From positions 1-34,616 of the IMG/VR virus record IMGVR_UViG_3300046460_000100: a DNA stretch of 34,616 nucleotides; one strand, 5' to 3'. This document shows, piece by piece, positions 26,769 through 28,650 of this stretch (its first letter is position 1; every line of letters begins with the position of its first letter). The stretch comes from a virus. The translations under genes and the position numbers were made by a program. The notes under the pieces were generated by a model. The model was not told the DNA's origin. It was given only the letters and a program-made list of their open reading frames with translations, and ran no database searches.

Positions 26769-27136
26769 TCGAGACCTCCATCGGTTGGGAAATGGGGGCC
26801 GGCAGACGGGGGTACATCTGCCGGCTTCGCTGTCTTGGCTTGGGAGGGGTTTGACAGCGAATGGGTTATCTTGGCTTCAAGCTCTTGAGCGCGTGCCCAT
26901 GCGTCCTCGCGCAGCTTCACAAGGCGCTTGACGTAATCCTCTGTGGCCTCGATGTGGTTGGCGGGACCGTACAGCTTGCGACAGGCGTTCCAGCACTCGA
27001 CCAGCCGGTCAAGGACCGCCCTGTCACCTTCCATGACCAGCAGAACATCTTCGCCCTTGGTGTTGCAGATGCGGGCAACGCCGTCTTCGCGAACGTCAAC
27101 GAAGAGTTCCGGGAACGGCTTGAAGGGAATGCTCAT
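26765..27136 (-). CDS. Early protein of unknown function (123 aa)
   Basis: 123 aa. The N-terminus is beta-rich (FPELFVDVREDGVARICNTK, GEDVLLVMEGDRAVLDRLVE), then CWNACRKLYGPANHIEATED and a charged helix (YVKRLVKLREDAWARAQELE), ending in a proline-rich tail. The phrase LVECWNACRKL is frequent in phage early proteins of this type. It follows cro with an ATGA overlap, so it belongs to the leftward early operon under the Cro/CI switch. No biochemical role known to me. Confidence 0.66.
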   Translation of the reverse strand: MSIPFKPFPELFVDVREDGVARICNTKGEDVLLVMEGDRAVLDRLVECWNACRKLYGPANHIEATEDYVKRLVKLREDAWARAQELEAKITHSLSNPSQAKTAKPADVPPSAGPHFPTDGGLE

Positions 27137-27387
27137 GCCGCCGACTCCTCGCCCTCGACCGAGTGGTCGTTGAGGAAGTCCGCCAGCGCCAGTGTGTCGC
27201 CTTCAGCCTTCGCCGCATCGATAGCTGGCGCCCAATGTGACTGCGGGATACGGCCTCGGATTTGCCAGCCCTGGACCGTGCTGACAGCTAGGCCGAGCTT
27301 GTTGGCGGTCTTGGTGAGACCTCCAAGTTTTCGGATCACATAGGCAGCGGGAGAGAGGAGCATTTCGACGTTCCGTTCATCAGTCAT
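27133..27387 (-). CDS. Cro-like HTH regulator (YdaS/Cro type)
   Basis: 84 aa from ATG 27387. The HTH is AAYVIRKLGGLTKTANKLGL, AVSTVQGWQIRGRIPQSHW (about residues 14-52), the Cro/YdaS pattern with the recognition helix starting at STVQGW. It is the first gene of the leftward operon, divergent from the repressor. The predicted -10 box ends 6 bases before this ATG and no ribosome binding site is seen, so translation may be leaderless. An internal ATG at 27363, with GGA 8 bases upstream, is an alternative start that leaves the HTH intact. It likely represses the lysogeny promoter. Confidence 0.78.
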   Translation of the reverse strand: MTDERNVEMLLSPAAYVIRKLGGLTKTANKLGLAVSTVQGWQIRGRIPQSHWAPAIDAAKAEGDTLALADFLNDHSVEGEESAA

Positions 27388-27437: not shown

Positions 27438-28175
27438 ATGACTAATGGTCTGGTGCGTTCGATGGATAACAGCCCGGAATCAATAGCCAATCGTATGCGC
27501 AAACTGCGTGAGCGCACCGACTTGTCGATTGACCAGATGGCGAGGGGGATGGGCTACGCCAGCGCCTCTAGCATCCAACGCTACTTCGACGCCGGCAAAC
27601 TGAAAACAGGCTACCTTAAGAGGGATTTTGTGGCCAAGGTTGAGAAAGTGTTACTAGGCAAGGGCAACCCGCCAATCACAAGGCCCGAGATATGGGAACT
27701 CGCGGGGCCGGAATTCAACTTTGGAGCATTAGAGACTTCTAATGCTGTTGTTATCTCACAGAACGTTACTTCCGTACACAAAATCCCCGTGTATGGTAGC
27801 GCGGTTGGTGGAGTGGATGGCGAATTCGCCATGAATGGAGGTATCTTGTACGAGGTGGCGGCCCCACCGGTACTGACTAACGTATCCGGGGCATATGCAG
27901 TGCAAATCTCTGGCGAATCAATGGAACCGCGTTACTTCGATGGCGAAGTGGTTTTTGTGAACCCACACCGCAGGGTTGTAAAAGGCGATTTCGTCATTGT
28001 CCAGATACTTGGCGAGACAGACGATGATCCGCCCCTGGCCTTCGTGAAGCGGTTCGTTCGGCACAACGCCGCCGAGCTGGTGCTTGAGCAATATAATCCA
28101 GTGAAGGAATTGCGGTTTCCGCACGATCGGGTGAAATCAGTGCATTTCATCACGATGGGAGGCTCTAGCTCTTAG
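27438..28175 (+). CDS. Phage repressor, HTH plus S24 (LexA-like) peptidase
   Basis: 245 aa. N-terminal HTH (about 16-55; RMRKLRERTDLSIDQMARGM, ASASSIQRYF). The C-terminal S24 domain begins near 113 (HKIPVYGSAVGG); catalytic Ser161 lies in SGESMEPRY and Lys204 in FVKRFV. The cleavage region reads AVGG instead of the common Ala-Gly bond, so RecA-stimulated self-cleavage is not certain. It keeps the lysogenic state by binding the TACGCA..TGCGTA operators. Start 27438 chosen for its position just after the operator; an internal ATG at 27462 is possible. The gene is more AT-rich than its neighbours. Confidence 0.9.
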   Translation: MTNGLVRSMDNSPESIANRMRKLRERTDLSIDQMARGMGYASASSIQRYFDAGKLKTGYLKRDFVAKVEKVLLGKGNPPITRPEIWELAGPEFNFGALETSNAVVISQNVTSVHKIPVYGSAVGGVDGEFAMNGGILYEVAAPPVLTNVSGAYAVQISGESMEPRYFDGEVVFVNPHRRVVKGDFVIVQILGETDDDPPLAFVKRFVRHNAAELVLEQYNPVKELRFPHDRVKSVHFITMGGSSS

Positions 28176-28183
28176 TACTGTTA

Positions 28184-28500
28184 GGCTCTTCTATTGGTCC
28201 TGACCGTTAGAGAGCCCTGAACTCCGGACATAGGAGGACTAAGCCCCGCGAATTTCAGCGAGGTTAGCCCCTATGCCGGAAGTGATCTTGACCGCCTGAG
28301 CCGCCCGTCACCCCATCCGCCGTGGACGTACAACAGCGCCACGACTTGACCGCACTATATCGGCTCTCTGGTAAGAGACCGGCGACACCCCTTCGGTCGT
28401 TCGGAGTGGGGTTGCACTATGTCGCGCCCGGTGGTAATGCATAAGTCGTCAGTTATACGACCTGGGTCCGCCACCGTCTTCAACCGTTCGGCACCCATCA
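28184..28500 (+). ncRNA. Structured non-coding RNA candidate in the immunity region
   Basis: Between the repressor stop and an intrinsic terminator there is no supported gene but a chain of hairpins: 28184-28216 (GGCTCT/AGAGCC with inner CTA/TAG and GGT/ACC); 28223-28280 (TCCGG/CCGGA, CATAGG/CCTATG, CTAA/TTAG, CCCC.GC/GCGAGG); 28361-28381 (CGG.TCTCT/AGAGACCG); 28382-28425 (GCGACA/TGTCGC, CCCC/GGGG); 28429-28476 (CGGTGG/CCACCG enclosing GTCGT/ACGAC). It may be the 3' part of the repressor message or an independent RNA; no clear promoter of its own was found. Antisense immunity RNAs exist in other phages (for example P4 and P1), which is the precedent. A replication origin is another option. 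Confidence 0.5.
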
Positions 28501-28501
28501 G

Positions 28502-28536
28502 AAACCTCGGCCTAACCGCCGGGGTTTTTCTGTTTT
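28502..28536 (+). terminator. Intrinsic terminator after repressor / structured RNA
   Basis: AACCTCGGC (28503-28511), 6-base loop, GCCGGGGTT (28518-28526), then TTTCTGTTTT. Nine base pairs with one G-T wobble and a good T-run. It ends plus-strand transcription before the rightward early promoter. Confidence 0.8.
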
Positions 28537-28568
28537 AGCCGATCCATACGCAAAAAGTCAACACGGCA

Positions 28569-28618
28569 TACTTTTTTTGCGTAAATAATGCTTGCGTCTT
28601 ACGTTTTATGCGTATACG
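28569..28618 (+). promoter_or_regulatory. Rightward early promoter (PR-like) with two operators
   Basis: Two operator-type sites, TACTTTTTTTGCGTA (28569-28583) and TACGTTTTATGCGTA (28600-28614), centres 31 bases apart (three helical turns), plus a half site TACGCA at 28547-28552. The second overlaps a likely -10 TATACG (28613-28618) exactly as the left operator overlaps TATATA (both read ATGCGTATA); the -35 (TGCTTG or CTTGCG near 28590) is weak. Leader about 26 bases to the first gene. Confidence 0.5.
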
Positions 28619-28650
28619 GTCATTTCCAGAGACAAGCACTGGAGACGGAC

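Follow-up and report, generated by a model that had tools for sequence, protein, structure and literature searches.

A conserved, pseudoknotted phage RNA with paired variable boxes downstream of a repressor gene

What is encoded between the repressor gene and the operator-like repeats of a temperate phage? The question arises in IMG/VR record IMGVR_UViG_3300046460_000100, a virus sequence of 34,616 nucleotides (nt) with P22-like portal and coat genes that was analyzed over its whole length (the window; all coordinates are positions in this stretch). A preliminary description had marked the region behind the repressor gene as noncoding, with five hairpins running into a terminator just before the operators, and had proposed an immunity RNA, either comparable to those of phages P4 and P1 or new, and possibly a control on the stability of the repressor message. 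The observation was confirmed and proved to be understated, as the region holds a member of a conserved RNA family of ~300 nt with pseudoknots and two variable boxes that match each other. It is near certain that this structured family is real. No open reading frame of at least 60 amino acids occurs within 28176-28587, and an intrinsic terminator with a 12-pair stem and a U tail is found on the + strand at 28500-28529, directly 5' of repeated TACGCAAAA/TTTTGCGTA sequences (about 28547-28615); on both points the description was right.

Fold and strand of the RNA

The + strand of the noncoding stretch folds more stably than its shuffled versions (-139.1 kcal/mol versus -119.9 ± 5.1; z = -3.79; 0 of 100 shuffles as good). 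The - strand of the same stretch also folds stably (z = -3.14), so folding energy alone cannot pick the strand. Two features favor the + strand: the direction of the terminator, and a U-G pair in helix P6 that is invariant in 18 of 18 sequences and that the opposite strand would read as C-A.

A MAFFT alignment of 18 homologs, including the RNA of this phage, was used to measure covariation. The nested helices comprise 62 pairs with 85% of alignment cells paired, and 29 of the 62 have compensatory double changes. Their covariation score is 0.260, compared to 0.107 ± 0.008 for shuffled alignments (0 of 500 reach it). Slid controls do not exceed 0.069. For the three pseudoknot helices (GACC with the P6 loop GGTC, TTGT/ACAA, and CGGTGG/CCACCG) the score is 0.393 versus 0.135 ± 0.019 when shuffled, and a loop-loop contact (CCAG/CTGG) is 97% paired. 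The helices were partly picked on this same alignment and the shuffles ignore relatedness, biases against which the slid controls and the members found later are a guard. Full-length members found after a covariance model (R1) was trained score 147–303 bits. Covariation analysis, which the preliminary description had named as a check, thus found structural conservation decisively in both nested and pseudoknot helices and upholds its view of a structured RNA rather than a mere terminator.

The structured core lies on the + strand at 28201..28496 (R1, 264.9 bits, with this sequence among the 18 training members of the model), and the conserved unit is this core plus the terminator (28201-28529), ~300 nt. 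Its 5' half contains hairpin P1 (CATAGGAGGACTAAGCCC..GGTTAGCCCCTATG, 28229..28275; 20 pairs, 96% of cells paired), followed by P2 (GTGA/TCAC, 28282..28311), which was read by eye in the members and is aligned poorly by MAFFT (47% of cells paired). P3 (28321..28343; double changes in 4 of 5 pairs, 90% paired) and P4 (28361..28380; 3 of 4 pairs, 93%) are joined by a loop-loop helix between ACAG at 28333-28336 and the P4 loop at 28368-28371, with 97% paired and two pairs double-changed. The P5 helix (GGCGAC/GTCGCGCC) encloses P6 (CCCCTTCGG..GGAGTGGGG) at 28381..28428; P5 has double changes in 4 of 6 pairs and is 97% paired, and P6 is 98% paired. The P6 loop (GGTC, 28395-28398) forms a pseudoknot with GACC at 28348..28351 that is 98.6% paired, changing from AU to UA in four sequences and from CG to UA in two. 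Two further pseudoknots are P7, TGCA at 28413-28416 with TGCA at 28438-28441 (3 of 4 pairs double-changed, 89% paired), and P8, CGGTGG at 28429-28434 with CCACCG at 28471-28476 (3 of 6 pairs, 89%). Hairpin P9 (28464..28496) reads GGGT/ACCC in this phage and has double changes in 7 of 8 pairs family-wide (79% paired). The five-hairpin fold described previously was therefore correct as to structure and too simple in form, since the fold comprises P1–P6, two 3' hairpins, three pseudoknots, and one loop-loop contact. The first hairpin visible in the sequence (28184-28216) is not conserved across the family.

Paired variable boxes

Two segments of the RNA are copies of one variable sequence. Box A (TGACCGTTAG, 28201..28210, + strand) is the first copy and lies in the 5' single strand; box B (TGACCGCCTG, 28289..28298, + strand) is the second and lies in the loop of P2. 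The box sequence varies between elements, but A matches B inside each RNA. Among 21 distinct A/B pairs of the alpha group, 94 of 105 variable positions are identical, compared to 53.9 ± 4.6 after shuffling (maximum 72; 0 of 10000 shuffles reach the observed value), and 15 different box core sequences were found. The flanks are constant, with GG-TGA following box A and GG-AGCC following box B. T/C mismatches between the boxes nearly always run one way, with T in A and C in B beside the constant GG, both in the alpha group and in a second group described below (the RF02932 group); in the alpha group most mismatches of any kind are of this type.

These features were combined in a signature: two copies of one 8-nt sequence (T-to-C changes allowed), 35–150 nt apart, with GG-TGA behind the first and GG-AGCC behind the second. 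A scan of both strands of 3.69 Mb gave 28 distinct matches, all in family members of the two groups, and a reversed control gave one. Some boxes are longer, as in three loci here called L049 (TCCGCTCGTYGG), L117 (TAATAGCTTTTYGG), and L107 (CTGCTCAAYGG). L117, at L117:1980-2279, is a variant of the RF02932 group of ~300 nt overall, in which the first hairpin is greatly extended and the matched boxes reach 14 nt (TAATAGCTTTTTGG / TAATAGCTTTTCGG). Readings of the boxes at the DNA level, as attachment cores or operator sites, were also considered; by eye, box type tracks neither repressor type nor operator type. Both the architecture and the paired variable boxes are regarded as new, with the caveat that one branch is partly catalogued as RF02932.

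Distribution, genomic context, and relation to RF02932

The nearest relatives of the repressor were fetched and their downstream regions compared. A diverged copy of the RNA occupies the same place in L003, whose repressor is 72% identical, and in both phages the RNA region is bounded by the repressor stop codon on one side and the terminator on the other. In L002 (87% identical) and L004 (70%), the stop codon runs straight into the terminator, and the RNA is absent from L002 and from L004–L012. Because the phage with the 87%-identical repressor is without it, the RNA is an accessory module. L002 retains the terminator and operator-like sequences, and elsewhere the RNA sits behind unrelated repressor types or, in L049, L107, and L108, not downstream of any repressor; control of repressor message stability, as suggested earlier, is not supported.

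Further homologs were identified using sequence patterns and covariance models. A pattern made from the most conserved hairpin retrieved 12 viral contigs, 11 of which are true members, the L003 phage being among them once more; a second pattern gave further members and a third gave L097, L101, L103, and L105. A genome scan located the RNA in Nitratireductor indicus (strain C115) and Aquamicrobium defluvii (DSM 11603). R1 found L043 (a near copy of one of its training members), L044, L046, and L047 at 156–303 bits and had matches in 5 of 394 genomes of one family. More distant members came from a class-level search (L048 and L049) and from a phylum-level search with a second model, R2 (L107 and L108), while L042 and L022 were discarded as chance matches. 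In all, ~20 contigs of temperate phages, with differing repressors, contain homologs, as do alphaproteobacterial prophages or islands. Searches with several members using blastn found none in 50,697 isolated phages (INPHARED) or 72,556 plasmids (PLSDB), indicating that the family is known mainly from uncultured or integrated phages. An Rfam scan of the whole window at gathering scores gave no matches, and no paper describing the RNA family, nor one on RF02932, was found in the open literature. The family is widespread and essentially undescribed, in phages and mobile islands of Alphaproteobacteria and probably also of Betaproteobacteria.

In alpha phages with enough flanking sequence, the RNA is usually 3' of a repressor or other helix-turn-helix (HTH) gene on the same strand. 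The promoter region that follows has different operator-like repeats each time, and some phages have other genes in between. The L107 RNA is divergent from a phage structural-type gene, and that of L108 lies beside an AlpA-like gene. No protein family is common to the elements (maximum 10 of 31), and there is no shared partner or enzyme gene. This varied context, together with the lack of a common protein family, indicates an accessory and mobile RNA that probably acts alone or with a host factor. Two distant copies have other genes of note nearby. The L049 RNA lies in an integrative island (L086:6793-16363), possibly a defense island, together with genes for a tyrosine integrase, an AlpA-like protein, and a Vsr endonuclease. 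The island also encodes a GHKL ATPase of 993 aa that weakly resembles a type II restriction protein. A BrxA (BREX defense) operon lies at L085:6665-7986, ~1.4 kb from L048.

RF02932 (Betaproteobacteria-1) is an orphan candidate family in Rfam, 120 nt long with a gathering score of 49.4 bits. It weakly matches the reverse strand of the 3' domain in L107 (25.7 bits, E = 0.005) and L049 (24.6 bits), both below the gathering score, and the RNA of this phage has no match to it even at E ≤ 5. A pattern built from its consensus retrieved 63 viral contigs (L111–L173), a few of which are chance matches or too short; RF02932 scores 84–106 bits in 9 of 10 viral loci tested, with L117 below the cut-off. 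When these loci are read on the opposite strand, their 3' helices are similar to those of the alpha group, and most carry both boxes upstream with the same flanks; a hairpin separates the two boxes, and box B itself occupies a hairpin loop. The loci had been collected without reference to the boxes, and A and B agree at 252 of 310 positions, compared to 164 ± 10.5 when shuffled. In A5 of this group, helices that may correspond to P7, P8, and the CCAG/CTGG contact are readable by eye. The models do not detect the other group: R2 found none of the RF02932 loci, a third model (R3) found none of the alpha loci, and nhmmer did no better than on shuffled sequences. The union of the groups is therefore well supported by signature and architecture and not by mutual detection. 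RF02932 is apparently a piece of one superfamily with the alpha group, read from the opposite strand. Its model represents the strand opposite to the RNA supported here and does not contain boxes A and B; if the union is right, it seems to have been built on the wrong strand and to miss the 5' half of the real RNA. A search for RF02932 in 249 Pseudomonadota genomes and 14 controls gave no matches and was uninformative. In phages of this group the RNA separates blocks of genes, and a CI- or Cro-like gene is often nearby. tRNA genes are present near the RNA in two of them (L112:2694-2766 and L167:5253-5325).

Possible roles of the RNA and neighboring features

Our preferred reading, held tentatively, is that this is a trans-acting phage RNA gene carrying two copies of one recognition sequence that are read by one complementary partner. 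The probable source of the transcript is the CI-type S24/HTH repressor gene upstream (27438..28175, + strand; Pfam Peptidase_S24, 1.4e-12; PHROG transcriptional repressor, 4.2e-21). In the lysogen, a noncoding RNA of about 300 nt plus terminator would form the 3' portion of the repressor-operon transcript, or be processed from it, and would end at 28500-28529. The compact pseudoknotted scaffold would display the 8–10 nt sequence twice, single-stranded at the 5' end and in the P2 loop, and both copies would base-pair with a single complement carried by another nucleic acid. A G in this complement could pair as U-G with box A and as C-G with box B, which we propose as the reason for T(U) in A and C in B. 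The partner would differ between elements and is probably an RNA of the host or of a competing element, a proposal made because none was found in the phage. On this view temperate phages and islands carry the module as accessory cargo that works in trans, outside the repressor circuit. The conserved fold and its strand, the gain or loss of the module, the paired boxes, and the independence from the repressor are established by the comparisons, whereas the transcript source, the partner, the action in trans, and the role are inferred. It is conceivable, though less likely than not, that the family amounts to a new class of mobile-element RNA, a two-site guide in which one pseudoknotted scaffold holds two copies of a variable 8–10 nt address that change in step to fit one shifting partner, giving protein-free and re-programmable recognition of hosts or competitors.

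Several results weigh against base pairing with such a partner. There is no complement of the boxes inside the RNA. Complements in an element's own phage are at chance level relative to swapped boxes, with own-guide ranks of 0.49 and 0.43 in alpha phages and 0.50 in RF02932-group phages, in searches that covered phage sequences and not hosts. Some boxes of the RF02932 group match the Shine-Dalgarno sequence and ATG of nearby genes (L112, L144, L159, and L162); these were rejected as targets, since any pyrimidine-rich box tends to fit such a site and the overall rank is 0.50. Matching boxes could also be read by a protein, and two equal short motifs between constant flanks (GG-TGA and GG-AGCC) would suit a dimeric one. 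We nevertheless consider it unlikely that the boxes are sites for a sequence-specific RNA- or DNA-binding protein whose specificity varies by element, with the rest of the RNA as scaffold: no protein family co-occurs in more than 10 of 31 elements, box type is by eye independent of the repressor or operator, and the one-way U-to-C pattern favors base pairing. A guide or template RNA for a recombinase, nuclease, or reverse transcriptase (bridge-RNA-like, or a direct-repeat template for strand jumping) is improbable, given that no enzyme gene is common to the RNA neighborhoods, even with two equal guide-like segments in a pseudoknotted scaffold and the presence of L049 in an integrase/AlpA island. 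A cis-acting element of the 3' untranslated region, stabilizing the repressor mRNA or insulating the early promoter, would fit the position between stop codon and terminator here and in L003. We regard it as highly improbable, since the RNA is missing after the 87%-identical repressor of L002 and lies behind other genes and divergently in L107, L108, and L049, and pseudoknots and paired boxes would be superfluous for such a role. Chance structure or a decayed coding sequence has a negligible probability, contradicted as it is by covariation, pseudoknots, and independent full-length homologs found by covariance model.

The immunity RNAs with which the RNA was previously compared offer one parallel. 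The closest such systems are the P4 CI RNA and the P1 c4 RNA. In P4 immunity the CI RNA is flanked by two sites, seqA and seqC, and pairs with both, so that recognition of two repeats by one RNA can work for a phage (PMC4825925). The RNA described here is likewise encoded in the immunity region of most alpha phages, in several phages of the RF02932 group has a CI- or Cro-like gene next to it, and has two equivalent sites with one proposed partner. It differs in being much larger, pseudoknotted, and accessory to the repressor. That the boxes are targets of one short antisense RNA, whose pairing would cause termination or block lytic functions, is quite unlikely, because neither the RNA nor the phages yielded a complement and because L002 retains similar operator-like sequences without it. 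Of the earlier interpretation, the structured RNA therefore stands, while comparability to P4 and P1 was not borne out beyond the two-site parallel, as no complementary RNA encoded by the element was found.

GOLLD and ROOL are likewise large, ornate phage RNAs supported by covariation and of unassigned function (cryo-EM study, PMC12286853). The present RNA differs from both in size and sequence, with no Rfam match. GOLLD and ROOL are not known for matched variable boxes. IS110 bridge RNAs are structured and have more than one guide segment, with guides for two different DNAs; here no transposase was found and the two boxes copy each other. A large conserved phage RNA with several pseudoknots and co-evolving matched boxes has gone almost unnoticed: records of isolated phages lack it, and one branch is catalogued only as a fragment on the opposite strand. 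Should the boxes prove to be guides, temperate phages of a very common group would carry a small RNA-only recognition device whose guide can be read from sequence. With the U/C rule and the 8-nt length of the boxes, the partner can be searched for and tested directly.

Downstream of the RNA in the window, the repeated TACGCAAAA/TTTTGCGTA sequences (28547..28620, + strand) are, as read from sequence, probable operators and early promoter; a promoter scan found no consensus match. On the other side of the repressor gene and divergent from it, a small HTH protein is encoded at 27133-27387 (- strand) and is possibly a Cro-like partner.
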